NCBI GenBank assembly: GCA_035765535.1
Contig: DASTXE010000006.1
Location: 496,001-560,000, forward strand
Source of the DNA: Rickettsiales bacterium
GTDB taxonomy: Bacteria > Pseudomonadota > Alphaproteobacteria > Rickettsiales > JABCZZ01
Direction of reading: 5' to 3'
DNA: 64,000 nt
The notes under the pieces were generated by a model. That model worked only from the letters and a program-made list of their open reading frames with translations. It did not search any database and was not told the origin of the DNA. Positions 4,391 through 43,415 of this stretch are shown here, piece by piece (positions within the stretch are counted from its first letter, which is position 1; each line of letters begins with the position of its first letter). The position numbers and the translations under genes were made by a program.

Positions 4391-5176
4391 GTGCAGCTGC
4401 GATCCAATCACAAACTGACAGCTACCCCAAAGGGTATTTTGTTCGATGATAAGCCGCTTAATAAATCCGTTCAGCAAGAATTATCACCCTATGCACTTCG
4501 TTATATTAAACGTGCAGGAGAACTTCTGAAACAGGTGTCGCCTGAAGATTGGGATAAGCATACCCCTCACCATATGAATGATGTGCCCGAACTTGCTAGG
4601 GCACAGATGATGTTGGCACTGGCGAATCCTATTATATTGAATAAATACAGCGCCGACCAACCACGCGACTGGCACGGCAGGTGGACTGATGGGAGTGCAG
4701 ATACATCAACGCCAACATATCAAATCGATCACAGTGAAGAATATCAGGTCGCCAGCAGCGGTACGGTTATGACTGATGCACAAGTGGATAGCGATATCCC
4801 AAAAGCACATATACTGGACAACCCTGCTCAATACGTGCACCAAAGTTTCCCTAACGCAAAAGGCAATACAGAGTGCGTGGCTTTTGCTCAGCAGGTTGGC
4901 GGAGCACCGCTAACTAGTGAATGGGTTGCAGGGGACTATATCTCCCCAGACAATCCTCCCCCTAAAGGCACTTGGGTCGCTACCTTTAATAGAGATGGTA
5001 ATTATCAGGGACACGTCGGAGCATTTAGTCGCTTTGATAACAAAGGTAATTTATATCTATACGATCAGTTTAATAAAAAAGGAAAAGTGACAGAACAATT
5101 CTATCGTCACAAGCCCAAAGACTGGAAAGGTCATATCAGTAACAACCCAACCCAATATAGGATCGTCAAATGGTAA
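4391..5176 (+). CDS. Probable peptidoglycan amidase effector (BPSL0067/NlpC-P60-like)
   Basis: The C-terminal half (about residues 150-261) matches what I know of the BPSL0067 family of papain-like peptidoglycan amidases. NTECVAFAQQ holds the candidate nucleophile Cys, followed by SEWVAGD, GTWVATFNRDG, then GHVGAF with the candidate His and YLYDQF with the third polar residue. The N-terminal third contains QPRDWHGRWTDG, an RxxxGRWT-type linker I recall from phage and effector proteins. There is no signal peptide, so export would need a dedicated system, which is not in this window. GTG at 4391 is chosen because GGAG lies 5 bases upstream; GTG at 4385 is an alternative. It overlaps the next gene by 7 bases. 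Confidence 0.68.
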   Translation: MQLRSNHKLTATPKGILFDDKPLNKSVQQELSPYALRYIKRAGELLKQVSPEDWDKHTPHHMNDVPELARAQMMLALANPIILNKYSADQPRDWHGRWTDGSADTSTPTYQIDHSEEYQVASSGTVMTDAQVDSDIPKAHILDNPAQYVHQSFPNAKGNTECVAFAQQVGGAPLTSEWVAGDYISPDNPPPKGTWVATFNRDGNYQGHVGAFSRFDNKGNLYLYDQFNKKGKVTEQFYRHKPKDWKGHISNNPTQYRIVKW

Positions 5177-5604
5177 GGTACTTTTTCTTCATTCCATTCG
5201 CTGCAACTTTCCTACCTCATGCGGCTCTCGCACAGAGCACACTATGCCCTTTATCACTTTCTACAAAAGGTACATCAATAGAACAGCCTGCGGGTTGGCA
5301 AAGTTATGCACCACCACCGGTAATATTGGAAAAAGACGGTACATCTTATCATTTATATAGCATTAATTTCGTGGAAGATGACGATATCGATTTTCTACCC
5401 CCTTCCAAAACAGGAAATACAAAAGATTCCGTGTCCTATCATTGGCAATTTAATAAAAAATCTGATTACGAAATTGACTGCATATATGATGGAACTTCCA
5501 CACACCTGACACAGAAATTGACTCCGGGCTTAAAAAGCTGCGAAGCTATATATAAAAAAGGCAAGGACGGAAAATTATCGTTCAGCACAGCGCAGTGCAA
5601 CTGA
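5170..5604 (+). CDS. STY0301-family periplasmic protein, probable immunity partner
   Basis: This 144-residue protein starts with a clear signal peptide (YFFFIPFAATFLPHAALA, cleavage near residue 21). The mature part follows the STY0301 pattern: CPLSL, then PAGW, a central acidic region, and YEIDCIYDG...LTPGLKSCEAIY with paired cysteines. Its ATG lies inside the last codons of the amidase gene (7-base overlap), so the two are co-translated. A periplasmic protein coupled to a cell-wall amidase is the arrangement of an effector and its immunity protein; that role is inferred. Its stop abuts the stop of the leftward ubiquinone hydroxylase gene. Confidence 0.7.
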   Translation: MVRYFFFIPFAATFLPHAALAQSTLCPLSLSTKGTSIEQPAGWQSYAPPPVILEKDGTSYHLYSINFVEDDDIDFLPPSKTGNTKDSVSYHWQFNKKSDYEIDCIYDGTSTHLTQKLTPGLKSCEAIYKKGKDGKLSFSTAQCN

Positions 5605-6822
5605 TCACGCCGCGTCCTGCATCATCCTCGGCAGGTCGCCCATAAGCCCCATGGCGTGTCGCATGAAAATGCGCTTGAGCGGCGGCGCATGATTGACGAT
5701 ATCGAGCCCCATATCGCGCGCCAAGCGAAGTGGAGTAATATCATTGGAGAATAGCCTTGTAAGCCCGTCCATGATCGCCCCCATGCTCATCGCATCAAAC
5801 CTGCGCCAGCGCTGGTAATGCGCAAGCAGATCGGCTGAGCCGATATCCAGGCCAAGCCGCAGCGCATCCACGACGAGTTCCGCCAGCACCGCCACATCCC
5901 TGAACCCTACATTCACGCCCTGCCCTGCAATCGGATGGATCGCATGGGCTGAATCACCTATCAGCGCAAAGCGGCTATCCACATAACGCTTAGCCAGTAC
6001 AAGATGCAGCGGATAACAAAAACGTTTACCCACCTGCTTGAAATTTCCCAGATGCGTGCCGAGACGCTTGGCAATTTCGGCATGGAACGCTTCTTCCGGC
6101 AATTTGACAATATCCGGCGCAAGCGTTTCATCTTCGCTCCAGACCAGCGCCGAACGGTTGCCCTGCATCGGCAGCGCCGCAAACGGGCCGACTGGCAGGA
6201 AACGCTGGATCGCGAGCCCCTCATGCGGCAGTTCATGCTCAATCGTGCAAACGATTGCCATCTGTTTGTAACCGCGCTCGATCGTGCCGATTCCCACTTC
6301 GGCGCGCAGCTTGGAGCGCTTGCCATCCGCCGCTACGATTAAGGGAGCACGCCACTGCGAACCGTCCGATAATGTCACGCTGACGCCATAAGCATCCCGT
6401 TCCATGCTCTTAACCTGCATGGGAGCCAACAACTTTAATGAAGGCAACTCTTTCACGCGCTGCATAAGCGCAAGGCGCGTATGGCGGTTTTCCACCATAT
6501 TGCCAACCGGCTCATCCCCCACATCGCGATAATTATAATGCACATGCGCAGTAGAATCCCCGTCCGCCACACGGATATCAAGGATCGGCTGGGCGTAAGG
6601 CTGCATATACTGCCAGATTCCGGCCGCGCGCAGCACACGTTCGGAGCCGAGCGAAATGGCGCTTACACGCCCGTCGAATTCGGGCATAACCTGCGAAGCC
6701 ATATCCTCTTTTTCGATCACTGTGGCTTGCACGCCTTCCTGCGCGAGCGCAATTGCAAGCGTAAGCCCGACCATGCCGCCGCCGACGATCAGAATATCGG
6801 TATGATGAATGGGGTTGTTCAT
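5605..6822 (-). CDS. UbiH/UbiF/COQ6-family FAD-dependent ubiquinone hydroxylase
   Basis: This is a flavoprotein monooxygenase that hydroxylates the benzoquinone ring during ubiquinone synthesis, associated with the inner-membrane face. The N-terminal dinucleotide motif is IVGGGMVGL (about residues 11-19). VAADGKRSKLR gives the DG motif, and RFALIGDSAHAIHPIAGQG gives the FAD-ribityl GD motif characteristic of the UbiH group. The 405-residue length fits. I chose ATG 6822, which has a purine-rich AGAGAAAAGGGAAA just upstream, over the longer frame starting at 6912. Which ring position it modifies (UbiH, UbiF, UbiI or UbiL type) cannot be told from sequence alone. Confidence 0.9.
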   Translation of the reverse strand: MNNPIHHTDILIVGGGMVGLTLAIALAQEGVQATVIEKEDMASQVMPEFDGRVSAISLGSERVLRAAGIWQYMQPYAQPILDIRVADGDSTAHVHYNYRDVGDEPVGNMVENRHTRLALMQRVKELPSLKLLAPMQVKSMERDAYGVSVTLSDGSQWRAPLIVAADGKRSKLRAEVGIGTIERGYKQMAIVCTIEHELPHEGLAIQRFLPVGPFAALPMQGNRSALVWSEDETLAPDIVKLPEEAFHAEIAKRLGTHLGNFKQVGKRFCYPLHLVLAKRYVDSRFALIGDSAHAIHPIAGQGVNVGFRDVAVLAELVVDALRLGLDIGSADLLAHYQRWRRFDAMSMGAIMDGLTRLFSNDITPLRLARDMGLDIVNHAPPLKRIFMRHAMGLMGDLPRMMQDAA

Positions 6823-29889: not shown

Positions 29890-31192
29890 GCAAGCTTGGC
29901 GAAAGGTTTTTATTAAGAATGTGGCTCAGGTATTCGATGGGCCACATGCTACCCCCAAGACTGTTTCTGAAGGTCCGGTCTTTCTTGGGATTAACTCTCT
30001 AGATAATGGTCGACTCAATCTTGCCAACACTCGGCATGTTACAGAAGAGGATTATCTTTTATGGACACGCCGAGTCACGCCGCAAGCTAATGATATTGTA
30101 TTCTCCTATGAAACTAGGATCGGTGAAGCAGCAATAATTCCTGAAGGGTTGAAATGCTGTTTAGGGCGTCGTATGGGGCTAGTGAGAGTCGATTCTAATC
30201 AGCTTGATCCAAGATTTTTTCTCTATTCTTATTTATCACCTCAATACCAAGAGTTTTTACGATCAAAAAAAATTCATGGCAGTACTGTTGAACGCCTGGC
30301 ATTAACGGAATTTCCTAATTTTCCACTCGCTATTCCTGACATATCTGAGCAAAGAGAAATCATTAATATTCTAAGCTGCCTAGATAATAAAATTGAACTC
30401 AACCAGCAAATGAACAAAACGCTGGAAGCAATAGCGCGGACGTTATTCAAATCATGGTTCATAGATTTTGACCCCGTAAAAGCCAGGGCCGAAGGCCGCA
30501 AGCCTAACGGCATGGACGACGCCACCGCCACCCTGTTTCCATCCCGCTTTGTTGAATCTGAATTAGGAATGATTCCCGAGGGATGGAGCACAGCTCCTTT
30601 TGCTAGTCTTATACAGTTAATCGGTGGTGGAACCCCCAAAACAACTATAGCAGAGTATTGGAATGGTACTGTTCCTTGGTTTTCTGTGGTTGATGCGCCT
30701 GTTGAGGGTGATGTTTTTGTTATTGCAACAGAAAAAAATATTACAGAGACTGGACTAAAAAATTCATCTGCTCGTCTTTTACCTATAGGTACAACTATTA
30801 TTTCTGCGCGCGGAACAGTCGGACGTATTGCACTTGTTGGTGTCCCTATGGCAATGAATCAGTCATGTTACGGAATTAGAGGATTAGATGGAATTGGCGA
30901 TGCTTTTACATATTTTGCAACAAAATCTATATTATCAGAACTCAAAATACGAGCACATGGCTCTGTCTTTGATACAATCACTCGGGAAACATTTGGCAGT
31001 GTGCTTGCTATAAAGCCGTCGTTAGATAGTATTAATATTTTCGAACAACAGGTAGCGTCTCTATTCAAGCGCATCCTATCCAACTTACAGGCAACCAGAA
31101 ATCTAATGGCAATCCGCGACCTCCTGCTTCCCCGACTTATCTCCGGCAAATTGCGCATTGAAACTCAGAACGATATAGAGAGCGTGGCATGA
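29879..31192 (+). CDS. hsdS: Type I restriction-modification specificity subunit
   Basis: HsdS sets the DNA target through two target-recognition domains. Here TRD1 spans about residues 1-150 and TRD2 about 230-390. The conserved helical spacers follow each: LDNKIELNQQMNKTLEAIARTLFKSWFIDFDPVKARAEG after TRD1, and RNLMAIRDLLLPRLISGKLR at the end. The TRDs look AT-rich compared with the spacers, as is common where TRDs are exchanged. ATG 29879 lies inside the last codons of hsdM. The last bases overlap the DUF3800 gene start (ATGA). Confidence 0.93.
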   Translation: MVSKQAWRKVFIKNVAQVFDGPHATPKTVSEGPVFLGINSLDNGRLNLANTRHVTEEDYLLWTRRVTPQANDIVFSYETRIGEAAIIPEGLKCCLGRRMGLVRVDSNQLDPRFFLYSYLSPQYQEFLRSKKIHGSTVERLALTEFPNFPLAIPDISEQREIINILSCLDNKIELNQQMNKTLEAIARTLFKSWFIDFDPVKARAEGRKPNGMDDATATLFPSRFVESELGMIPEGWSTAPFASLIQLIGGGTPKTTIAEYWNGTVPWFSVVDAPVEGDVFVIATEKNITETGLKNSSARLLPIGTTIISARGTVGRIALVGVPMAMNQSCYGIRGLDGIGDAFTYFATKSILSELKIRAHGSVFDTITRETFGSVLAIKPSLDSINIFEQQVASLFKRILSNLQATRNLMAIRDLLLPRLISGKLRIETQNDIESVA

Positions 31193-31896
31193 CCAGTGTA
31201 ATCAATGTCTATTGCGATGAATCGTGCCACCTCCAGAAGGATGACGGCAAGGCAATGGTACTCGGTGCGCTGTATTGCAATGCAGAAGAAGTAAGGATAA
31301 TTGCAGATAAAGTGCGGGCGATTAAAAAGAAATATAACCTGCCGCGGTTGTTTGAAACAAAATGGACAAAAATATCCCCTTCAAAGAAAGACTATTACCT
31401 GGCTTTGGTGGATTATTTTTTTCATGAATCACCAGCGCGATTTCGTTGTGTTCTTATCCCGGATAAAACCAAACTTGATCATGCGCAGTATTACCAAACA
31501 CATGATGATTGGTACTACAAAATGTATTATGTCATGTTGCAATGGCTTATTCGGCCACCAAAAAAATATCATGTTTATATTGATATAAAGGATACGAAAA
31601 GTACCCAACGGGTAAAAACACTACAGGATTATTTAGCAAATCGTATATACGATTACTCTCGCGAGTGTATCGCCCGTGTCCAGCAAGTAAGATCGCATGA
31701 AGTCGAGCTTCTTCAATTGGCTGATCTTCTGATTGGAGCTGTTGCTTACGCAAGCCGCCATCCTCATAAAACGGGTGCAAAAGCTGAAATTGTCGAACGC
31801 ATATGCAAGTATTTGCCACAACAAAGCCTCTCAAAAAGCACGGCTTACAGTTATACCAAATTTAATCTGTTTGTTTGGGATGCAGGCATACAATGA
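31189..31896 (+). CDS. DUF3800 protein
   Basis: The start NVYCDESCHLQ and the later VYIDIKDTKS, then VELLQLADLLIGAVAYASR, match the DUF3800 pattern, a predicted RNase H-like fold with acidic residues at these places. DUF3800 proteins are common in mobile and defence loci; no activity is established that I know of. The 235-residue protein is coupled by an ATGA overlap both to hsdS before it and to the next gene after it, so it is expressed with the restriction system. Insertion between hsdS and hsdR is unusual. Confidence 0.82.
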   Translation: MTSVINVYCDESCHLQKDDGKAMVLGALYCNAEEVRIIADKVRAIKKKYNLPRLFETKWTKISPSKKDYYLALVDYFFHESPARFRCVLIPDKTKLDHAQYYQTHDDWYYKMYYVMLQWLIRPPKKYHVYIDIKDTKSTQRVKTLQDYLANRIYDYSRECIARVQQVRSHEVELLQLADLLIGAVAYASRHPHKTGAKAEIVERICKYLPQQSLSKSTAYSYTKFNLFVWDAGIQ

Positions 31897-32408
31897 CGTT
31901 ACCACCTCTTATCTTACTGGAAGAATATGGTGGCGATTGGCAGTGCTATCTAGAAACGGCTTATGCAATATTTTTAGAGACTGTAGTAAAAGGTGGATTA
32001 ACGTTTCTTGACAAACCAATTCGTTGTGCATGGAATCCCTCACATGATAACAAGCATTTCAGTTTCTGGCATGTCATTTCCGAACGGGCAGCCTCTGGTA
32101 AAGAAGAGGATAGAATTCCCGATATGCGCAGATGCGAGCGTATTACATGGATAGCGCATATTCTTAATAATATTGCCAACAGTCAGGAAGCTTTATGTTG
32201 GGAGAATCAGCGTACCAGCAAGCGAGGAGAACAAACACATACAGTTTTGTACTTGCAGAAAGAACGATATGTTATTGTTCTACGGAATAAAGAGGATTGT
32301 TATCAACTAATTACGACGTACTGTGTACAAAGGGAGCATAAACATAAAAAGCTTATACAAGAATATGAGGAGTCTGTTGATCCCAGAAATGACAAGGGGC
32401 GCCCATAA
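31893..32408 (+). CDS. Unknown protein coupled to DUF3800, possible nuclease
   Basis: ATG 31893 overlaps the DUF3800 stop (ATGA). The 171-residue protein has a conserved-looking core (RCAWNPSHDNKHFSFWHVISE and RCERITWIAHILNNI). Its end, RYVIVLRNKEDCYQLITTYCVQREHKHKKLIQEYEE, reads like the last strands of BECR-fold (barnase/EndoU/RelE-like) nucleases, where a short VxLxxxxxxYxLxTxY pattern is seen. This likeness is from memory and needs a profile search. It appears to form a two-gene unit with DUF3800. A weak hairpin (GGGGCG...CGCCCC) overlaps its end at 32396. Confidence 0.6.
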   Translation: MTLPPLILLEEYGGDWQCYLETAYAIFLETVVKGGLTFLDKPIRCAWNPSHDNKHFSFWHVISERAASGKEEDRIPDMRRCERITWIAHILNNIANSQEALCWENQRTSKRGEQTHTVLYLQKERYVIVLRNKEDCYQLITTYCVQREHKHKKLIQEYEESVDPRNDKGRP

Positions 32409-32590
32409 GGACGCCCCCAGATACTCCTTCCACACTAACACCATGTTACAGGATGGTGGGTGAGCTAGACCTATATTCTCAAACTCAGAACAAAAAGTCA
32501 ATAATTTTAAAACAGAAGAGAACAAATAAATGGGAAAAGTCAAGAAAAATATTGTATATTCAATAATTCTTGGTTGTTCTTAGTAGTATT

Positions 32591-35500
32591 ATGGCGATAA
32601 CTGAAGATAAATTAGAACAAGTGGCCTTGGACTGGTTCCAGGTGCTAGGCTATAAAAAGATTTATGGTCCTGACATTGCACCGCCGCCAGATGGTGAAAC
32701 CCCGGAGCGTGACAATTACCGGCAGGTGATCTTGCTGGAGCGACTCAGGAATCAGTTGCAGGTCATTAATCCTACAATTCCCGTTGTAGCAATTGATGAT
32801 GCCATAGGCCAGATCATGGCTCCGAACTTGCCAACCACAATTCAGATCAACCGGCAATTCCACCGCTGGCTACGTGACGGCGTAAGCGTACAGTACCAGC
32901 GTGACAGCGAAACGGTGGGCGATCTGGTATATCTGGCGGATTTCAATAATCCTGCAAACAACGACTGGCTGGCGGTCAACCAGTTTTCCATTCAGGGGCC
33001 GCACCATACGCGCCGCCCAGATATTGTGGTTTTCTTGAACGGCCTGCCGGTCGCCGTGCTGGAACTGAAAAACCCTGCCGACGAAGACGCGGATATATGG
33101 AAAGCTTTCGACCAACTCCAGACTTATAAAGAACAGATTCCCGATCTGTTCAACACCAATGAAATACTCGTTATCTCTGATGGCGTAACGGCACGTATGG
33201 GATCGCTGACCGCCGATAAGGAGCGTTTTTCCGCCTGGCGCACGATTGACGGCAAAACCAATGACCCGCTGGGGCAGATGCATGAACTGGAGACGCTTAT
33301 CAAGGGCGTTTTCCATAAAGAGTTCATGCTTGATTACCTGAAAAATTACATCCTGTTTGAAGAAGACAAGGCAGAGATCATCAAGAAAATTGCCGGATAC
33401 CACCAGTTCCACGCGATCCGGCTGGCAATGGCGCGGACGCTAGCGGCGTCTGCCGAAGGCGGCGACCATAAGGCCGGGGTTGTCTGGCATACGCAGGGAT
33501 CGGGCAAGAGCATCTCGATGGCCTGCTATGCGGGCAAGGTCATGACGCACCCGGACATGAAGAACCCGACGATTGTTGTTGTGACCGACCGTAACGATCT
33601 GGACGGCCAGCTATTCGGCACGTTCAGCACAGCAAAAGACCTGCTGCGTGAAACGCCAAAGCAGGCGGAAAGTCGTAGCGCTTTACGAACGCTGCTGGAT
33701 AACCGGCCTTCCGGCGGGATTATCTTTACTACTATCCAGAAATTCACTCCCGGCGAAGATGAAGACAGTTTCCCCGTATTGTCCGAGCGGCATAATATCG
33801 TGGTGATCTGCGATGAAGCGCACCGCACCCAATATGGGCTGGACGCTCGCATCAATAAGAAAGGCGAATATGAATATGGCTATGCCAAGCATATGCGCGA
33901 CGGCCTACCCAATGCTACCTTTATTGCCTTCACCGGCACGCCTGTTTCCCAGGCCGACAAAGACACGCGGGCCGTCTTCGGGCCGGATATCCATGTGTAC
34001 GATATGGAACAGGCGGAAAAAGATCAGGCCACCGTCAAAATCTACTATGAAGGCCGTCTGGCAAAGCTGGAACTGAAGGAAGACCAGAAACCCCACATAG
34101 ACGGTGAAGTGGAAGAACTGACCGAAGATGAGGAAGAAAGCGCTGCCGCTAAGATAAAGTCCCGTTGGGCTGCGCTAGAAAAGCTGGTGGGGGCCGAACC
34201 GCGTATTAAACAGGTGGCCGCTGATCTGGTGCAGCATTTTGAAGAGCGGCTTAGGACGATAGACGGTAAGGCAATGATTGTCGGCATGAGCCGGGATATA
34301 TGCGTACATCTTTACAACGCCATTGTTGACCTTCGCCCGGAATGGCATGACGACGATCCGAAAAAAGGCGTCATTAAAATCATCATGACGGGTTCATCCA
34401 GTGATAAGCCTATCCTGCGTCCTCATATATATTCCAAGCAGATTAAAAAAGACCTAGAAAAACGGTTTAAGAGTGTTGATGATCCATTCAAAATCGTCAT
34501 CGTGCGCGATATGTGGCTGACAGGATTCGATGTGCCATGCTTGCATACGATGTATATCGACAAGCCTATGCGTGGCCATAATCTGATGCAGGCTATTGCC
34601 CGTGTGAATCGCGTATTTAAAGACAAACCCGGCGGGTTGGTGGTGGACTATATCGGCATTGCCAATGAATTGCGGGAAGCCTTGAAGGAATACACCGCCA
34701 GCGGCGGCAAGGGCAAACCTACCGAGTTTATTGAGCAAGCGTTTGATCTGTTTATGGAAAAACTCAGCGTTGCACGTGGTATGATGCATGGGTTCGATTA
34801 CGCGGATTTTGAGTCCGAAGCTTTCGAACTTCTGCCCGGTGCAGCTAACCATGTTCTGGAACAGAAGGATGGCAAAAAACGCTTTGCCGATTGCATTACA
34901 GCAATGAGCCAGGCTTTCGCACTGTGCAGCACGTATGAAGATGCGCTTCCATACCGTGAGGAGGTTGCTTTCCTACAGGCGATCAAAGCGGTTATTACTA
35001 AGCACAGCACGGCTTCTAGCAAGCTTGATGATGAGAAACGAGAACATGCATTGCGACAGATCGTCAGCAAAGCTATTGCTGCTGATGGCGTCGTGGACAT
35101 TTTCGCTGCAGCAGGACTCAAGAATCCCAATATAGGGCTTTTGTCGGATGAATTCTTAAATGATGTACGCCTGCTTCCGCATAAGAATTTGGCGGTTGAA
35201 CTTCTGGAGAGGCTGCTGAAAAACGATATTAAGGCACGCTTCAAAAACAACGTGGTGCAAAATAAGAAATTCACCGACCTTTTGCAGCAAGCTCTTAATA
35301 AATACCGCAACCGCGCCATTGAAACTGCGCAGGTAATAGAAGAGTTGATCGCAATGGCTCAGGAATTTAGAGCAGCAGCGGAACGTGGGCAAGATTTAGG
35401 ACTAAGTGCAGATGAAATAGCATTTTACGATGCATTAGAAACCAACCAAGCATCCGTTAAAGAATTAGGGGATGACATTCTCCGGCAAATTGCTGTGGAA

Positions 35501-35683
35501 CTGACCGATCAGCTTCGTAAGAATGTATCAGTCGATTGGTCAGTGCGCGAAACTGTGCGAGCAAAGCTAAGGTTGTTGGTGAAGCGAATTTTGCGGAAAT
35601 ACAAATATCCGCCTGATCTTGAACAAAGAGCTATAGATTTGGTTTTGCAGCAGGCGGAGACGTTATCAGAGGCATGGGTGTAA
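32591..35683 (+). CDS. hsdR: Type I restriction-modification nuclease/translocase subunit
   Basis: HsdR translocates and cleaves unmodified DNA. The 1030-residue protein has the N-terminal PD-(D/E)xK nuclease ([20 protein letters not shown], about residues 140-160). Two RecA-like motor domains follow, with Walker A HTQGSGKS (about 298), DEAHRTQ (about 406) and FTGTP, then [12 protein letters not shown] in the second motor. The C-terminus is a helical HsdM-binding region. ATG 32591 ([10 protein letters not shown]) is the natural start. It is separated from hsdS by two extra genes. Confidence 0.95.
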
Positions 35684-35695
35684 ATAGGTAATATT

Positions 35696-36709
35696 ATGGC
35701 ATTATGGTTGGCACGGGCTGGAAAACATGGTGAATTTGAACAGAAATTCTTAGAGGAAAATCGTATTTATCTTACATGGGAAGAATTAGAAGCAAGCTTA
35801 GCAAATGCTAAATCCTATGAAGATGTACGAGAGATCGTTTCCCGAACCTATACCGAGAGTCCAAAAGGCCAGATCACTAATTGGACCGGACAAATCAGCG
35901 CTTTTTCTGTATATATGCAGATAGGTGATCTTTTCGTGATGCCTCTTAAGCACCAGCCAGCTATTGCTATCGGTGTTATTGAGAGCGGATATCAATATGA
36001 TGCTAAAGCCTCTATGCCATATAGGCATTATCGCAAAGTAAAATGGCTCAATAAAGGTATTCCTCGTAATAAATTCGATCAGGATTTACTATATTCCTTT
36101 GGCGCTTTTCTGACATTTTGTGAGATTAAGCGTAATAATGCCGAATCACGAGTGAAAGCTATTCTTGGCAAAGGGAAAGAAGCTGCAAAGATTGATGCCA
36201 TTCCTGATGAAAATCAGGCTCAAATCAATATCGAGGAGTTAGCGCAAGATCAGCTAGCTAACTTTATTATCCGCAAATTTAAAGGATATGGACTTGAAAG
36301 ACTCGTGGAAGCCATTCTAAAAGCTCAAGGCTATATTACATATCATAGCCCCAAAGGCGCGGATGGTGGTAAAGATATTCTAGCATGCTCTGGCAATCTA
36401 GGCTTTGGCGAACAGAGAATTTGCGTACAGGTAAAGTCTGGTGATGCTCCTGTAGATTCTCCTACACTGGATCAACTTATTGGTGCCATGCAAAAAGTAA
36501 ATGCAACACATGGACTATTAGTGGCATGGGGCGGATTTAAACAAAGCCTGGAAAAAGAGCGCGCACGGCAATTTTTTATTGTACGTTTATGGGATCAAAA
36601 TGATTTAATTCAGCAAATCCAACAGCACTATGATAAACTTGAAGATGAAATTAAGGCTGAACTGCCATTAAAGCGCATTTGGATGATAGCTGATATAGAA
36701 AAAGAATAG
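35696..36709 (+). CDS. Mrr-type restriction endonuclease
   Basis: The C-terminal domain carries the Mrr catalytic signature: GADGGKDILACSG (about residues 220-232) and RICVQVKSGD (about 242-251), the D...QxK nuclease core. Mrr-type enzymes cut methylated or foreign DNA. The N-terminal 150 residues contain GDLFVMPLKHQPAIAIGVIESGYQY, which resembles a PUA/EVE-like wing that may sense modified bases. The 337-residue gene starts 12 bases after hsdR, so it is probably co-transcribed with the type I system. Confidence 0.87.
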   Translation: MALWLARAGKHGEFEQKFLEENRIYLTWEELEASLANAKSYEDVREIVSRTYTESPKGQITNWTGQISAFSVYMQIGDLFVMPLKHQPAIAIGVIESGYQYDAKASMPYRHYRKVKWLNKGIPRNKFDQDLLYSFGAFLTFCEIKRNNAESRVKAILGKGKEAAKIDAIPDENQAQINIEELAQDQLANFIIRKFKGYGLERLVEAILKAQGYITYHSPKGADGGKDILACSGNLGFGEQRICVQVKSGDAPVDSPTLDQLIGAMQKVNATHGLLVAWGGFKQSLEKERARQFFIVRLWDQNDLIQQIQQHYDKLEDEIKAELPLKRIWMIADIEKE

Positions 36710-36776
36710 GAATAATAAGAAAATAATCCTTATTAGCTACTATATTCGCCAGTGCTGCAAGTTTATAGAACATTGC

Positions 36777-38966
36777 TCATTCTTGGTGATTATCCTTATG
36801 AATAATGATCGTCTCTGGACGACCAACCTGCAAGTAGCTAAGAGAAGTTGAATTTACTGTTGCTGCGTATAGTTCTTTGCGAGCTAAATTTTCATCAATG
36901 CTACGCTCAACAATTTTCGAAATTAATACTTCGAAAGGCCAATCTTCACCAGCATTAATAGCTATATTACCATCCAGATGAATTTCTTTATACAAGACTT
37001 CATTGATAATATTTTTATCTTCTAGTCGCGTAAGAAAGTCGGTGACCAACTGCATGCGAATCATGCCGGACATAATTTCCATCCAAGTCAGCGAACGACT
37101 AAATGCCTTATGCGCGCGAGGAATGAAGTCTGTAATTCGATACAATAGTCTAGCTACAAAGACTGCCGCGTCTCTAGCATCGATAGGGAATACAGCCCCC
37201 AGAACAGCGCGAGCACCGCAAGCCAAGAATCCATTGGCGGTTGAAGCATGATTTCTATCCGCCGCGTGAGTATCGCAAGCACTGAGAACAACAATAGGAG
37301 GAACACGGACAACTTTTGATCGCAGTTGCCATATATCGATTTCTTCTTCGAGTAATTGTAGCTTTGCAGGGCGATTACTTTCGTGACCACCGTGACCATC
37401 AAATATAACCATAGCTCCTTCAAAAGAGTTAAGAGCCTTAATTAAATCTTCTTCATTTCGAATGCGCTCAGTTTTTAAAGTTACTTTGCCAGCCAATCGC
37501 GGAGCAAAAGTTTCAATTGCTATCGCAAACCACCGGCTAATTGGATCTGTTTCTTGAAGAGCACTTAGAATCAGAATTTCACTAAAGTCCCTCTGCCTAA
37601 GATGAATGTATGGTTTTGGCGAAATTTGATCTATATACAAATTTCCGGGAGTTACAGGTATCCTAGTAACGTCTTTTTGTATACATAGTGGAAGTCCTTT
37701 AATATTTATCCACTCTAAATGGGCATCTGAAATTATTCTTATACCGTCTTCTGCAGATTCAATGAATTGAAAAAATTGCGAAGGAATTGACGCCGTAATT
37801 TTATTTTGCAGCTCTTTAAATTTCTCGATACGCTTACGCTCTGTTGTTTGCCTTGCACGGTATTGTTGAGCAAATTGACGGACTTGCCCTGACGTTCTAT
37901 TTACTGCATTTGGAAGGCGTAAAACGGCAGAAATTTCTGAAACTGAAAGAGTAGCCATACATTCCGCGGCAAATTTAAGCTCTCGCGCACGTTCTTGCAT
38001 CAAAAAATGCGGTTTGGGTTCCTTGTTAAGCGGACCGCCAAATAATGCTTCAGCCTTGGCCATAGTTTTTGCTTCAAATGCATAGCCCTCTTGCTGCTCC
38101 AATGCAGCACGTGCAGCTAAAAATTTTTTGCGCTCATTTATTGAGAATGGAGCATCTCCAATAGGCAATTCCTTGAAATGCGGATAGATTGCAGGGGCGA
38201 ACAAGTTCAGTCCCGGAGGTCTTCTAAAATAGCGATTTACTTCACGCTCACCTATTCGATCACGCTCCTGAAGAATAGACTGAGTCGTTTTAGTAATTTC
38301 TTCTACGTAAGGCACAATCCCATTATTTATGTTTCTAAAAGGCCCATAAGCAATGTCTTTATAGCCTAACAAATTCAGTGTCAGCATGTTCGGATAATTA
38401 GCGTTATGTCCACCAACTTGGTAACTTAGTTGACGAGGTTGTGGCTCAATCCAACTAGCTAAATGCAGCCGAGCATTTACTAAATCTTCTGCATGAACCT
38501 TACCTTCTAAAGCATCGCATATTTTTAAAAATGAATTTCTTAGCTTCTCTAGGTTAAAGTCCTTGTATGCAATCGTACCTCCTGTCTCAGCTAATACTGT
38601 CAGAGGAAACGGATGCGCATTAATCCAGCTTTGATACTTTTCGATTTTATGTTCTTGCCCCAACATGAATAGAACAAAAGGTGTAAAAACCGGGGTCATC
38701 ATGCTTGCGAGAGCTTTAGGCGATTGTGCATACCAGCTTACAGGTGCTTGGCCAGCCATACGCCTAGGAAGTCTAATTTCCTCCATATCCGGAGCAAGTT
38801 CATCTATTGTACTGGGCAATGTATTCGCTATTCGAACAAGCCAAGAATGATTTAATAAGCTGGGCGCAAAACCTTGAAGAAAGCTGGCTTGATGAGGGTC
38901 TCCATCCTCTACAGGGATTATAGTAATGATGTGATTAAATAAGCGCGGCAAAGTTGTGTTTGTCAT
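36777..38966 (-). CDS. CHAT-domain caspase-like protease
   Basis: The C-terminal part has the CHAT catalytic pair: His in VIFDGHGGHES (about residue 524) and Cys in VVLSACDTHAADR (about 563), followed by GFLACGARAVLGAVFPIDARDA, a typical CHAT block. CHAT proteases act in bacterial defence, often by cleaving a partner effector. The N-terminal 450 residues are not recognised; they contain Arg/Lys-rich helical segments but no obvious repeats or membrane helices. The 729-residue gene is convergent with the Mrr gene and is the last gene before the right border. No gasdermin, Cas7-11 or other known CHAT partner is seen nearby. Its ribosome-binding site is weak. Confidence 0.85.
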   Translation of the reverse strand: MTNTTLPRLFNHIITIIPVEDGDPHQASFLQGFAPSLLNHSWLVRIANTLPSTIDELAPDMEEIRLPRRMAGQAPVSWYAQSPKALASMMTPVFTPFVLFMLGQEHKIEKYQSWINAHPFPLTVLAETGGTIAYKDFNLEKLRNSFLKICDALEGKVHAEDLVNARLHLASWIEPQPRQLSYQVGGHNANYPNMLTLNLLGYKDIAYGPFRNINNGIVPYVEEITKTTQSILQERDRIGEREVNRYFRRPPGLNLFAPAIYPHFKELPIGDAPFSINERKKFLAARAALEQQEGYAFEAKTMAKAEALFGGPLNKEPKPHFLMQERARELKFAAECMATLSVSEISAVLRLPNAVNRTSGQVRQFAQQYRARQTTERKRIEKFKELQNKITASIPSQFFQFIESAEDGIRIISDAHLEWINIKGLPLCIQKDVTRIPVTPGNLYIDQISPKPYIHLRQRDFSEILILSALQETDPISRWFAIAIETFAPRLAGKVTLKTERIRNEEDLIKALNSFEGAMVIFDGHGGHESNRPAKLQLLEEEIDIWQLRSKVVRVPPIVVLSACDTHAADRNHASTANGFLACGARAVLGAVFPIDARDAAVFVARLLYRITDFIPRAHKAFSRSLTWMEIMSGMIRMQLVTDFLTRLEDKNIINEVLYKEIHLDGNIAINAGEDWPFEVLISKIVERSIDENLARKELYAATVNSTSLSYLQVGRPETIIIHKDNHQE

Positions 38967-39386
38967 ACTGGTAGCCGGGTAAAGTACATTTAAGCCGAGA
39001 AACTGAAGCTGCTCTACAAAAAGCCTTAATACATCTCACCATAAACTTTTGAGCAACAGGTTTAGGCTTTCTGTTGTGATTGCTACAAGCATGCAACAGG
39101 ATTCTATGAGCAGACGCTTGTTCCAATCGGAGAATGCGGTAAATATATTCATATAAGGCAAAATTACAAGGTGCTGATATTCTTGCCACCGTCATTCGTT
39201 ACATACCATGCAAGGCTTGATTATATTGACTTTGGGAAATACACTAAAGTGCGAGTAGTTGTAGGAGCAGGTGGACCTGCGACCTCAGGTACTAATAAAA
39301 TTATTCTGGGGGTATTTTTGGGGGTACGCAGAAAACCCACATTAAATAATATAATTATATAACAGAATATTATTTAAATAATGTTG
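38967..39386. other. Right-end noncoding region of the island
   Basis: About 420 AT-rich bases without a convincing gene between the CHAT start and the attachment copy. It should contain the CHAT promoter. It also holds the GGGGGTA pair at 39308/39320 described separately. A leftward frame (38935-39195) overlaps the CHAT start and is not convincing. Confidence 0.5.
39308..39326 (+). repeat. GGGGGTA pair near right end
   Basis: Two GGGGGTA words start 12 bases apart (39308 and 39320), the same spacing as upstream of int at 22484/22496. They are candidate arm-type recombinase sites on the right side of the element. Confidence 0.5.
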
Positions 39387-39398
39387 ATCCTACCCGCG
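39387..39398 (+). repeat. attR core
   Basis: ATCCTACCCGCG repeats the 3' part of tRNA-Asn (22351-22362); GCCA follows after a 3-base deletion relative to the tRNA. It marks the right border of the island. Confidence 0.75.
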
Positions 39399-39440
39399 CC
39401 AATTCTGCACTATATTATACCTCTATAAGCCAGCCCTATC

Positions 39441-39540
39441 TTGGGGGTATAAATGGAGGTATATTTTAAACCCTTGGCCCTAAATACCCCCAAGCCTTAC
39501 AGACATAGCTACATGTACAACAAAACCCCGGGACAAAGTA
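39441..39540 (+). pseudogene. Decayed 5' end of a second P4-type integrase
   Basis: This stretch lines up with the region upstream of, and the first codons of, int at 22481-22590. Shared features are TTGGGGGTATAA, the second iteron (GGAGGTA, one mismatch), AAATACCCCCA at the start codon, then TTAC..A.ATAGC and CAAAACC. The reading frame is broken and only about 55 bases of coding remnant can be followed. Its position right after attR is where the integrase of a second, tandem island would begin. It appears to be the scar of an older insertion. Confidence 0.65.
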
Positions 39541-39554
39541 CGAAGAAAATAACA

Positions 39555-40298
39555 ATGGAATTTGATCCCAATAATAAGGTTGTCAAAACCTGCCTTGATG
39601 CCATGACTCTGGAAGAAAAGGGCCGAACGGAAGAAGCATATGAACAATTTCGCAAGGCCTGGACCGAAGCAACATTCGATTCTGAAAAATTTATCTCAGC
39701 CTACTTTCTGGCTCGCCATCAGAAGAACGTTTCTGACAAACTGGAATGGCTCAAGATTACTCTGCAGATTGCATTGAAAATAGATGACGACACCGTCAGA
39801 AGCGCGTTCCCTGCTCTCTATTCAAACATTGCGAAATGCTACGAGGATCTGGGCAACCCGGAAAAAGCAAGACAGCATTATGAAATAGCTACTTCCTACA
39901 AGTACAACCCTTCCGACAAAGGTCCCTTCTATCATGGGACAAAAGCCGATTTACAGGTTGGAGATTTTCTGACGGCAGGTGGAAGCTCCAATTACAAGCA
40001 AAACCTCACCATGAATCACATCTATTTCACAGCACTTGCAAATGGGGCGGGTCTGGCGGCTGCACTGGCAAAAGGTGATAGAACAGAGCGTGTTTACATT
40101 GTCGAACCAACAGGGCCGTTTGAGAATGATCCCAATGTTACGGATAAAAAATTCCCCGGCAACCCAACGCGTTCATACCGCTCTGAAGCCCCGTTAAAAA
40201 TTATAGGTGAATTAAAAGAATGGAAAAGACTAACACCTGAGGAAACTCAGAAATGGCGTGAGAAGCTGGCAAGCAATAAAGGGGAAATTATTAACTAA
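39555..40298 (+). CDS. TPR-Arr fusion: rifampin ADP-ribosyltransferase-like
   Basis: The C-terminal 125 residues are strongly Arr-like: GPFYHGTKADLQVGDFLT, NHIYFTAL, RVYIVEPTGPFENDPNVTDK and KFPGNPTRSYRS. Arr enzymes ADP-ribosylate rifampin with NAD and confer resistance. The N-terminal 120 residues are helical and tetratricopeptide-like (EEKGRTEEAYEQFRKAW, ALYSNIAKCYEDLGNPEKARQHYEIA), an addition not present in the short Arr proteins of about 140 residues. The longer frame from 39453 reads through the integrase remnant, so ATG 39555 is preferred. Its site beside the scar suggests it is cargo of the older element. Whether it acts on rifampin or another substrate is unknown. Confidence 0.85.
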   Translation: MEFDPNNKVVKTCLDAMTLEEKGRTEEAYEQFRKAWTEATFDSEKFISAYFLARHQKNVSDKLEWLKITLQIALKIDDDTVRSAFPALYSNIAKCYEDLGNPEKARQHYEIATSYKYNPSDKGPFYHGTKADLQVGDFLTAGGSSNYKQNLTMNHIYFTALANGAGLAAALAKGDRTERVYIVEPTGPFENDPNVTDKKFPGNPTRSYRSEAPLKIIGELKEWKRLTPEETQKWREKLASNKGEIIN

Positions 40299-40725
40299 CT
40301 TCATCTAGTATCCCCGCTGAACTGAACTGCGCACAGCTTATAAGAAATCTTCATATTACAGCTATTGGTTTTACAAAAACCATATACGAACGTTTCACCT
40401 GTTCACTCGTGAACCATATAGTCCCCTTATAATTTTTTTATTATAAAGACATGCAATGGAGCATGAAAAAAACCTATGTCACTGGGTAACCTTTAATTAA
40501 TAAATAAAGCCTTCAGCGAGAAAAATGAAAATTCTATAAAAAGTTGAAAAGATACCCCTGGACACACAACTTAAAGTGTCATATAGACCTCCTTGGCTCT
40601 ACCTATTCTTGCATAAAATCCCATCCGGAGCCACCCAAGCGATCAATCAATCTTACGGCAAACCATGCGTATTGAGCGTTGCGGCATGGCGTAGAGCGAT
40701 TGTTCATAACCCATAAGGAGGAACC
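40299..40725. other. Intergenic region before the 692-aa gene
   Basis: AT-rich, no convincing gene. It contains the palindrome GTTCAC-TC-GTGAAC (40401-40414), a possible operator, and ends in a very strong ribosome-binding site (AAGGAGG) 4 bases before ATG 40726. Confidence 0.5.
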
Positions 40726-42804
40726 ATGCCGACAAAAGACTCAACACCCGACCTCACAACCAGGCCGGATGACCGCAAGGTCACTTCCATTCAGGCTCAG
40801 CGGCTTGCTGCATTGTCCGGGGTAGATGCCGCACAGTTGAAAGGAACCATCTCCCAGCTGTCCGATAAACTGAAATGGAAGATCGATCCCAGCCTTTTCC
40901 TTTTCCAGAAAGTCTGCGGCAAGGTCGTCAAGAAAGACCCTGTGACCGGCGTCGAGCGTCCCGTGCCTTTTGCCACCGTCTATGTGGAAGATACCGACTG
41001 CAGCCTGATCAGCTACTTCCCCAAAGGCTGGCCTTGGGGATGGCATTTTCCGTTCAACTGCCACCGCGAGATCATTGCCACCACCAAGACGGATAAATGC
41101 GGAAATTTCTGCGTGTGGGTTCCGCGCTTCGATATTGACTGGGTACTGAGATGGCGTAAAGAACGCATCTGCTTCCCCATCATTTTCAACCGCCCCTCCA
41201 TAGGAGATCTGATTCCGAAACTGCCCGGCCAGGTGGTCGGCCCGTGGCCTCCGATCCCTCAGCCTGATCCGGGTCCGCTGCGCACGCTGGCAACGTTACA
41301 GCCTTCCGTGATTCACGCCATCGCCGGACAGGCGGCTGGTAAGCTTGCGGATAGAGTCTCGAAGCTGCAGACCGTGAAAACGCTGGGCACTTCCGGCATA
41401 GAAGATCGTAACCTTCATGTGCGGGCGTTCGAAGGCGAACTGCCGCCGCCGCTTCCGCCGGAGTTCGGCGATGCGCTTACGGGCCAGAATGTCGTGGCAC
41501 AGAAAGGCGCGTCGCCGCTCGACGGGGTGCGTACCGCCATCGCGCTGAAACTCGGGGTCAACGCGAAGGATATTGCCGATTTCGATCCTTCCCGCTTCGT
41601 CGGCCCGTTCTTCCGCTGCTACGATATCCTCTTGCCGGAATGGCAGCGTATTCTGGACGTGCCGGATATTACGTTCCGCGTAACGCAGGATGTGAATGGA
41701 GACGGTGTCGAAGAAAATATCTACTCGGAAAGCTATTTCGACGTACGCTGGGATGCGACGAACATTCCGGATGTCACGCTCGTGGCCAATTCCATCGCGA
41801 AGGAATCCACCCTGTGCGACGCTCCCGTCGTCCCCTGCGGCAATGTTCCGGCACTGCTCTTCGCCGGATTCATGCCGCTCGACCTGCCTGCTTACTATGA
41901 TGCGACCGCAGGCTACACCGTGCGTCCCAACAGGCCGAAAAACGGTGTGGTCCGCCCTGCGGCACAAACGCCGTTCTGCGGAAACGTGCAGTTCTACGGC
42001 TGTGTGGATGTCAAGCAGGCCAAGTTCTACCGCGTGCTACAAAGCGTGGACGGAGGCACGACCTTCTCTGCGATCACCGGCGTTGCGTGGAACAACTACC
42101 GTAACACGGGCGGGGCTCCCATTGTCATCCATGCGGATGCCAGCGGATGGTATCCGGTCAATCCGGTGGACGGCATGGGCAACACGGTCAACCGCACTGA
42201 TTTGGAGTTCCCGAACCTGCTGCTCGACTGGCCGACGCCGGGACTTGGCAAGAGCATATTGAAGCTGGAAATCGGCAATGCGTCGAAAGCGAATATCGCT
42301 TATTCGAACCCTGTCGCCGTCCAGACCGACAATACAGCTCCTGCGGTTATCTTCACGCAGCTTGCGTGGAAGTTCGTCGGTGAGCCGGACAGCGCACTGC
42401 GGAATCTGCTGGGCATACCCTGTCCGACGATCCACCGCGGCGCAACTCCGAAGGCAATCGAGCTTGTGTTTGAAGTGAGCGTCACCGCCCACCATCTGCG
42501 CGATGCTTCGATCGGAACGAGCGGATGCGGCGGCGGCGTGTTTGCGCCGGTTGCAGATCCGCTGAACAATCCGTCGCATTGGCATACATCCGTGCTGGAT
42601 AATTCCACACTGCTGCACCAGCGCTACCAGCTGGATGCATCGGCGCTGGAAGGAGCCTATTCCTTCGGATGTACGGCCAACAGCAGGGCGATGAATCCGT
42701 CAGGCGCGGACGGTGGCAATAATGTGCCGCCGGATTGGTTCTACGATCCCGTTTACATCCATGTCGACCCGTCTATCGGGGTCGCCGTGGTGGACGTGAA
42801 CTAG
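40726..42804 (+). CDS. Large protein with carboxypeptidase-regulatory-like domain, 692 aa
   Basis: The function is unknown. After a polar N-terminus, residues about 60-145 (VCGKVVKKDP...PVPFATVYVEDTDC...TTKTDKCGNFCVWVPRFDIDW) look like a cysteine-rich carboxypeptidase-regulatory-like beta sandwich. A Pro-rich hinge (about 165-185) and a long C-terminal part with many cysteines follow, including DVNGDGVEEN, a possible calcium loop. There is no signal peptide or membrane helix. The strong AAGGAGG site suggests high expression. It heads a compact rightward group with the DUF1360 gene (60 bases on) and the 82-aa gene. Confidence 0.75.
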   Translation: MPTKDSTPDLTTRPDDRKVTSIQAQRLAALSGVDAAQLKGTISQLSDKLKWKIDPSLFLFQKVCGKVVKKDPVTGVERPVPFATVYVEDTDCSLISYFPKGWPWGWHFPFNCHREIIATTKTDKCGNFCVWVPRFDIDWVLRWRKERICFPIIFNRPSIGDLIPKLPGQVVGPWPPIPQPDPGPLRTLATLQPSVIHAIAGQAAGKLADRVSKLQTVKTLGTSGIEDRNLHVRAFEGELPPPLPPEFGDALTGQNVVAQKGASPLDGVRTAIALKLGVNAKDIADFDPSRFVGPFFRCYDILLPEWQRILDVPDITFRVTQDVNGDGVEENIYSESYFDVRWDATNIPDVTLVANSIAKESTLCDAPVVPCGNVPALLFAGFMPLDLPAYYDATAGYTVRPNRPKNGVVRPAAQTPFCGNVQFYGCVDVKQAKFYRVLQSVDGGTTFSAITGVAWNNYRNTGGAPIVIHADASGWYPVNPVDGMGNTVNRTDLEFPNLLLDWPTPGLGKSILKLEIGNASKANIAYSNPVAVQTDNTAPAVIFTQLAWKFVGEPDSALRNLLGIPCPTIHRGATPKAIELVFEVSVTAHHLRDASIGTSGCGGGVFAPVADPLNNPSHWHTSVLDNSTLLHQRYQLDASALEGAYSFGCTANSRAMNPSGADGGNNVPPDWFYDPVYIHVDPSIGVAVVDVN

Positions 42805-42864
42805 TCGTCAACTTTCAGGCGGGGCAGCTTTACGGCTGCCCCGTTTATAGATATAAGAAAACCT

Positions 42865-43170
42865 ATGCTCAGTGATTATTCTTTCGAGATGCAATTCCTG
42901 CTCTGTGCGCTGGCCGTCTGGCGGCTCTCGCATTTTCTGGTCGCGGAAGACGGCCCGTGGGATATTGTGATCCGACTGCGCGCAAGTTTGGGCAACAGCA
43001 TGATGGGCCAGATCATGGACTGTTTCTATTGCACGAGCATATGGATCGCCATTCCCTTCACCCTGTTAATTGCCAGAAGCTTCATCAGCGGATTTATACT
43101 CTGGCTGGCGCTTTCCGGGGCAGCATGCCTACTGGAACAAATGACGCAAAAAAAGGAATCCAAATCATGA
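42865..43170 (+). CDS. DUF1360 membrane protein
   Basis: The 101-residue protein matches the DUF1360 pattern: AVWRLSHFLVAEDGPWDIVIRLR near the N-terminus, then MDCFYCTSIWIA with two cysteines, and hydrophobic helices at about residues 7-20, 52-68 and 72-88. DUF1360 proteins are small membrane proteins of unknown function. Its stop overlaps the start of the next gene (ATGA). With the 692-aa and 82-aa genes it forms what looks like a conserved module. Confidence 0.82.
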   Translation: MLSDYSFEMQFLLCALAVWRLSHFLVAEDGPWDIVIRLRASLGNSMMGQIMDCFYCTSIWIAIPFTLLIARSFISGFILWLALSGAACLLEQMTQKKESKS

Positions 43171-43415
43171 GCTGCTGCGGACAGAAACGCCAGAACTGGC
43201 AGCATTACTCGCAAGCGCCAGTCCCGCAACCCCAGCCGCCGGAAATCAAGAACCCGAAACTGCTCTATTACATTGGCGAGACTTCCCTTGTCATCAAAGG
43301 CCCTGCCACAGGGCGCTCTTACCTGTTTGCAAGTGGAGAAGAAGGCTTGCTGGTGGATGAAAACGACATCACGCTGTTGCTGGAAATGAAATTGTTCAGC
43401 CTTGAGAAGAATTAA
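43167..43415 (+). CDS. 82-aa protein with Cys-Cys N-terminus
   Basis: The start MSCCGQKRQNWQ carries a CC pair followed by basic residues. A Pro/Gln-rich linker leads to LLYYIGETSLVIKGPATGRSYLFASGEEGLLVDENDITLLL, a short beta domain with a GPxTGRxYxF pattern that I recall from small phage and phage-like proteins. ATG 43167 overlaps the DUF1360 stop and has AAAGGA 9 bases upstream. It overlaps the end of the leftward CDF gene by 4 bases. Function is unknown. Confidence 0.7.
   Translation: MSCCGQKRQNWQHYSQAPVPQPQPPEIKNPKLLYYIGETSLVIKGPATGRSYLFASGEEGLLVDENDITLLLEMKLFSLEKN

Follow-up and report, generated by a model that had tools for sequence, protein, structure and literature searches.

The three-gene locus

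Three genes lie close together on the + strand of the window, that is, the whole 64,000-nucleotide stretch of DNA analysed here. The initial annotation had proposed a module of three genes here, and all three open reading frames, of 692, 101 and 82 amino acids (aa), are present on that strand. Gene 1 encodes a large protein rich in cysteine; gene 2, a membrane protein of the DUF1360 family; and gene 3, a small protein called MSCC. The features are:

40715..40721, + strand: AAGGAGG ribosome-binding site of gene 1 (sequence)
40726..42804, + strand: gene 1, large protein of type A, 692 aa, 14 Cys (12 at conserved positions)
41839..42801, + strand: two predicted Ig-like beta-sandwich domains, gene 1 codons 372-692 (AlphaFold, Foldseek/VIA)
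42817..42846, + strand: RNA hairpin of 13 uninterrupted pairs (three G-U) between genes 1 and 2
42865..43170, + strand: gene 2, DUF1360 membrane protein, 101 aa (PF07098, alignments)
43021-43032, + strand: C53-x-x-C56 codons of gene 2 (alignment)
43167..43415, + strand: gene 3, MSCC protein, 82 aa, named for its MSCC start

The AAGGAGG site, which the initial annotation had picked out as strong, stands 4 nt ahead of the gene 1 start codon, an ATG; with an in-frame stop four codons upstream of this codon, the frame cannot begin much earlier. Gene 2 starts 60 nt downstream of gene 1. Gene 3, already described as a CC-starting protein joined to its predecessor by ATGA, does overlap gene 2 in this way (43167-43170). 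The assignment of gene 2 to DUF1360 holds, with 29.7 bits against PF07098 (cut-off 21), and it also matches phrog_781 (E 4.8e-5); the 692-aa protein is Cys-rich, as had been said, with 12 of its 14 Cys at positions conserved in type A. The carboxypeptidase-regulatory-like region once suggested for gene 1 is not supported by any profile, no Pfam family matching at E <= 1. More broadly, searches of Pfam, PHROGs, NCBIfam, PADLOC and PDB sequences gave nothing for genes 1 and 3 at E <= 1, and the family libraries give none of the three genes a known function, in keeping with the first impression.

The neighbours on one side are genes for HsdR, PDC-S02, PDC-M04A, BovA and a TPR-Arr protein; on the other lies a cation-efflux gene. 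An island at 31189-40298 holds PDC-M04A (DUF3800), type I HsdR, PDC-S02 (Mrr_cat) and BovA (CHAT), together with the TPR plus Arr-ms protein, which has no PADLOC match. The Mrr and CHAT genes of the island (35696-38966) differ in make-up from the module: their third-position GC is 30-31%, that of gene 1 69.7%. No phage structural gene was found among 10 window neighbours by Pfam, or among four of them by PHROGs, where the matches were to a cation-efflux moron family, to two families of unknown function, or absent; on these results a prophage remnant was rejected. At other loci the neighbours vary and are mostly metabolic, as judged by eye. An S8 peptidase gene lies directly upstream at L006, and a Nal1-like gene, just under the Pfam cut-off, downstream at L042.

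A constant pair behind a variable large gene

The large upstream genes fall into at least five types (A to E). DUF1360 is the next gene after the large one in 16 of the 19 type A loci, and an ORF starting M-x-C-C follows DUF1360 in 15 of the 15 that can be checked; L004, whose contig stops before gene 3 is visible, is uncounted here, and at L011, L012, L013 and L017 the MSCC gene was assigned by position and its MSCC start, at profile E-values of 0.12 to 0.43. The type A loci without DUF1360 are L010, L015 and L018. Two of their contigs stop shortly past the gene 1 relative (0.77 kb for L010, 0.49 kb for L015) and that of L018 continues; a DUF1360 profile search across the three draft genomes found none. 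Six more genomes carry the DUF1360-MSCC pair behind large proteins of the other types:

Type B: G928, G894 and G1495
Type C: G1253
Type D: G1250
Type E: G1398, with two MSCC-like ORFs

MSCC is next to a module-type DUF1360 in 21 of 21 checkable loci; the pair is the constant, closely linked part of the locus, and the large gene ahead of it is what varies. The initial annotation had not remarked on this division, nor on the hairpin or the phage portal neighbour described below. Linkage of the three genes across genomes had been set beforehand as the refuting test; on examination it is conserved. The three genes are a conserved module, and the early remark that similar combinations exist in other bacteria was correct: the module recurs in distant genomes. 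Used alone, an MSCC profile matched three of 126 Gemmatimonadota genomes; the DUF1360 profile, run on 140, picked out these three as well. One of them, G739, had a sequence in each of the two profiles. Over 15 type A loci, the protein distances are correlated among the three genes (r 0.81, 0.84 and 0.89, with 0/2000 permutations for each correlation); within type A, the divergence of the three runs in parallel.

Homology among the large proteins is demonstrated for types A and B alone (E 2.3e-13 over 395 aligned columns). Comparison of profiles gave 4.1e-5 for A with E (40 columns), 0.0018 for A with B, 0.015 for A with D, 0.77 for A with C, and 0.22 to 0.42 for B with C, D and E, to be read against 18 shuffled controls at 0.049 to 0.89. 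There are also weak matches between the type A profile and type E (E 6.5e-5) and between the type B profile and type D (E 5.8e-4). From the standing of the profile E-values against the shuffled controls, no homology to A is established for C or D, and a relation of E to A is suggestive only. A C-terminal domain common to all large types was rejected.

Some loci are of more complex build. At L063:7538-8342, two consecutive MSCC-like ORFs stand behind one DUF1360, the second beginning MSCA. In the MAG G750 (L016, L019, L051; L019 and L016 are contig-end pieces), a second DUF1360-MSCC pair, left out of the 21-locus count, opens another contig; this represents either two module copies or a split assembly. 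Directly after the type B module of L041, positions 4542-6419 (minus strand) encode two proteins (165 and 434 aa) without Pfam match, and L043:54-851 resembles the larger by eye. Several candidates were excluded: G635 (E 5e-4, lying within a long frame full of repeats); G1087 (internal stop in the frame, which lies opposite other genes); G1352 (a short DUF1360-like frame without C-x-x-C, partner not found); three Chloroflexota DUF1360 genes without the module; and G1252, a prophage.

The distribution is sparse. Gene 1 has relatives in two of 343 genomes of the source order, the window's own included; the second member, G033, has counterparts of all three genes, 70, 52 and 39% identical to those of the window. 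Among 398 genomes drawn from the source phylum, the gene 1 profile found the window's own and one weak match, and the DUF1360 gene of the window is the sole PF07098 match found in its 2.6 Mb genome. A single scan across the genome collection, restricted by a pair of peptide patterns, turned up 16 loci, in records labelled Alphaproteobacteria, Betaproteobacteria, Gemmatimonadaceae, Acidobacteriaceae, Anaerolineae and Armatimonadetes, among others. In narrower surveys, each count including its starting genome, the large-protein profile matched 4/250 genomes of the family to which a Hydrogenophaga genome belongs (two of type A and two of type B), and the DUF1360 profile matched 5/179 (one weak) and 3/140 in the phyla of the Acidobacteriaceae and Gemmatimonadaceae MAGs. 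Hydrogenophaga taeniospiralis NBRC 102512 has the module, as L011.

Related module loci occur in Alpha- and Betaproteobacteria, Gemmatimonadota and Acidobacteriota, and large-protein relationships cross phylum lines: the Caulobacteraceae protein of L007 is 63% identical to that of Acidobacteriaceae L008 and 44% identical to that of Sphingomonas L006. Because these relationships cut across phyla, the module would appear to move horizontally. Carriage by phages or plasmids was rejected: genes 1 and 3 have no match in phage or plasmid collections, and gene 1 has no relative in 50,697 phage records nor in one IMG/VR scan. The module itself is apparently undescribed, no account of it having been found in the literature searched on DUF1360, PF07098, YqbF and YngL.

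The large protein

Twelve Cys columns are common to the 19 type A proteins in the alignment. Nine hold Cys in every covering sequence, column 371 in 18 of 19, and C92 and C112 in 17 of 19. These last two are lost jointly, in the same two proteins (L009 and L015), a pattern to be expected if they pair in a disulfide. By hydropathy, the 19 type A and two type B proteins have no strongly hydrophobic N-terminus, and no signal peptide appears in gene 1, where the maximum 19-residue value in the first 60 residues is 0.72.

The AlphaFold model of gene 1 has a mean pLDDT of 72.7 and a pTM of 0.46. Its most confident part, residues 372-692 (pLDDT mostly >80), is predicted to form two Ig-like sandwiches. 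The best VIA matches of this part include PrgB (Z 9.0, rmsd 6.7, 233 aligned) and antigen I/II (Z 8.2, rmsd 7.9, 232 aligned); with a top Z of 9.0 and four chains at Z >= 8, such matches are generic and may reflect a common arrangement alone. Eleven matches at E <= 0.001 were found in BFVD, some of them named as BACON-, DUF11- or fibronectin-type. Strands are also predicted at residues ~60-135, the stretch considered for a carboxypeptidase regulatory-like or transthyretin-like fold and one that structure comparison barely covers.

DUF1360 and MSCC

DUF1360 is listed in Pfam as a family of unknown function. In the collection searched, the literature naming DUF1360 or PF07098 came to PMC10551460, in the available part of which the family is a table row without function.

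Ten positions are invariant in the 17 aligned DUF1360 rows (L16, W19, R20, E28, G30, P31, C53, C56, W60 and E91), with one invariant Cys pair among them. MSCC has CC near its start in 17 of 18 rows. Its model (pLDDT 82.0, pTM 0.59) predicts a low-confidence CC tail followed by a small domain built from one helix and four strands. Structure comparison gives weak matches: a chain of a CMG helicase entry at Z 5.3, YqbF (PDB 2hjq) at Z 4.9 (rmsd 1.6 A, 44 residues), and the gpFI C-terminal domain at Z 3.8; BFVD gave no match to the domain at E <= 0.001.

A hairpin between gene 1 and the pair

The window hairpin is predicted at -23.8 kcal/mol (z -4.17), 1 of 200 dinucleotide shuffles being equally stable; it has no T-run after the stem, and a terminator scan left it unflagged. 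Among the 11 usable gaps of >=45 nt between genes 1 and 2, eight hold a strong hairpin (z -3.38 to -5.60 against dinucleotide shuffles): those of the window, L003, L004, L005, L007, L008, L050 (type D) and L063 (type E). The three type B gaps hold none (L041, L042 and L066; z -0.20, 0.99 and 0.58). At the remaining loci, the gap is <=26 nt or the genes overlap. Stem sequences differ among hairpin loci. Seven stretches downstream of gene 3 have no strong hairpin, four of them retested with dinucleotide shuffles at z 0.19 to 0.91. The hairpin may serve to raise gene 1 product relative to the pair.

Relatives in phages

A protein search found DUF1360 relatives in 13 of 50,697 phage records, at weak E-values (0.003 to 0.6). 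Four annotated phages were read; the portal gene directly follows DUF1360 in all four, and terminase directly precedes it in two. By PHROGs the order is terminase, DUF1360, portal in prophage L070 and DUF1360, portal in viral contig L026. Portal is next after DUF1360 in 33 of 35 further viral contigs when open frames beginning inside DUF1360 are counted (17/35 by frame start), and terminase precedes DUF1360 in 31 of the 33 with room; these 35 were fetched with two phage DUF1360 queries and, as relatives of the two, are non-independent. Across the phage material (L021-L024, L026, L070, L076-L110), the place directly before portal, often right after terminase, recurs. Six phage DUF1360 proteins retain C-x-x-C. 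The actinophage AWGoat is among the phages with a DUF1360 gene.

The MSCC domain is found in two viral contigs, in frame at the end of an ORF identified by PHROGs as a glycosyltransferase:

L025:2-2353: glycosyltransferase-MSCC ORF
L073:2870-5485: glycosyltransferase-MSCC ORF

A bacterial-only MSCC profile matched these domains at E 1.6e-8 and 6.7e-5 (database size set to 10,000), and at 2.8e-7 and 0.0012 in a scan of nine loci. DUF1360 lies 1.5 to 3.7 kb downstream of the fusion; a tape-measure gene comes after it in L073, and candidate tail genes were picked out by eye in L025, where two such ORFs have no PHROG match. The suggestion that gene 3 is a phage-like small protein draws support from the domain in these two viral contigs and from the weak fold match to YqbF. 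Small CC-start ORFs near phage DUF1360 were considered and rejected, three sense against one antisense being unconvincing.

What the module may do

One way to understand these observations is to suppose that the module belongs to the cell envelope. That is, the large protein would act outside the cytoplasm, either periplasmic or surface-located, and have up to six disulfides; DUF1360 would sit in the inner membrane with MSCC on its cytoplasmic side, as one complex; this complex would anchor, assemble or export the large protein; and the hairpin would let the large protein exceed the membrane pair in amount. Relatives of both small proteins among phage structural genes would fit a role in membrane docking or assembly. 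The best reading, at a probability of roughly 40%, is that of an envelope module that moves horizontally and whose pair anchors or exports a surface-type protein rich in disulfides. Several lines of evidence point towards it: the linkage (16/19 type A loci with DUF1360, 15/15 checkable with MSCC, six genomes of types B-E); the same three Gemmatimonadota genomes found by MSCC alone; co-divergence at 15 type A loci; conserved Cys columns, with C92 and C112 lost together; the lack of an N-terminal hydrophobic stretch in 19 type A and two type B proteins; C-terminal Ig-like sandwiches nearest to adhesin domains; the hairpin in 8/11 gaps; and the phage relatives.

Several points count against the envelope reading. 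Without a Sec-type signal, export is unexplained. L010, L015 and L018 lack DUF1360; either the pair is not always required or the drafts are incomplete. The conserved Cys could instead be cytoplasmic metal ligands. Matches to Ig-like folds are generic and those of the MSCC fold weak (best Z 5.3); the hairpin is missing in type B gaps, and many loci have gaps too short for one.

A second perspective supposes a membrane-linked defence or stress sensor: phage or stress would be detected by the variable large protein, with DUF1360 acting at the membrane. In the window, a defence island (type I HsdR, PDC-S02, PDC-M04A, BovA) lies right beside the module, and an HsdR gene lies 5 kb from the module at L016; the sparse distribution, the variable large partner and a small membrane protein as possible effector would suit such a system. 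However, PADLOC matches neither the three window proteins nor five large proteins of types B-E. Moreover, among 20 flanking proteins from 11 other loci, hand-chosen and mostly the nearest, the L016 HsdR is the sole clear defence gene; three other matches look generic (a subtilase, a Csa3/ArsR-like regulator and a methyltransferase-like protein). A general defence link gained little support, as did the prophage reading, and the sensor is unlikely.

A thiol-redox module, DsbB-like in effect, would use two motifs, C-x-x-C in DUF1360 and the CC tail in MSCC, to form or pass disulfides for the large protein. Both Cys of the motif are invariant in 17 DUF1360 rows, CC opens MSCC in 17 of 18, and gene 1 offers 12 conserved Cys positions. 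DsbB and VKOR, however, rely on more than one Cys pair, and DUF1360 has one invariant pair only; in addition, six phage DUF1360 proteins keep the motif where no such large partner was found. This role is distinctly improbable.

More doubtful again is a domesticated phage structural device, the large protein being fibre- or decoration-like and DUF1360-MSCC its assembly factors. The position of DUF1360 directly before portal (33/35 viral contigs, 4/4 annotated phages read) and the MSCC domain in two viral contigs would accord with such an origin; against it, neither 50,697 phage records nor one IMG/VR scan yielded a relative of gene 1, and the window neighbours include no phage structural gene (10 by Pfam, four of those by PHROGs). 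Finally, that the three are unlinked neighbours by chance, as the 60-nt gap and hairpin separating genes 1 and 2 might suggest, has almost no probability, given a gene order conserved over several phyla and three proteins that co-diverge.

A bolder form of the envelope reading, and an unlikely one, would make DUF1360 and MSCC a portable membrane docking device common to phages and bacteria. In phages, the device would nucleate the portal, or other components of the particle's structure, at the inner membrane. In bacteria, it would be coupled to a diversifying set of Ig-like proteins, rich in disulfides and without signal, and would bring them to the cell surface by a route not described before. 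Whatever its role, the module supplies DUF1360 with two defined partners, and the phage side adds a recurrent place for it, directly before the portal gene. If the pair does dock large proteins, this would point to a new placement route for signal-less envelope proteins and to a membrane step in the head assembly of some phages.

Comparison with known systems

The module fits no known kind among those compared, and the likenesses are partial. The Ig-like domains of the adhesins PrgB, antigen I/II and RbmA resemble the predicted sandwiches of gene 1 residues 372-692; gene 1 differs in its N-terminal half and in having no signal peptide or anchor that could be seen, and the fold is generic. YqbF (PDB 2hjq), a prophage-element protein, weakly resembles the modelled MSCC domain in its small sheet-plus-helix fold; compared by fold alone, the match is below Z 8 and level with unrelated chains. 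Factors of the T4 gp40 type assist the portal in assembling at the membrane, and the common point is that phages encode a small membrane protein next to the portal; the likeness is one of gene position alone, and no portal gene was seen beside the window module.

The closest relation is to the DUF1360 family itself (PF07098; a B. subtilis member, phrog_781), with which gene 2 shares the profile match, the C-x-x-C-x-x-x-W core and the hydrophobic segments. Three weakly matching Chloroflexota genes of the family are unlike module members in having neither MSCC nor a large gene. Module-type DUF1360 can escape PF07098, which missed those of G745 and G742 and found those of G000, G1250 and G1253.
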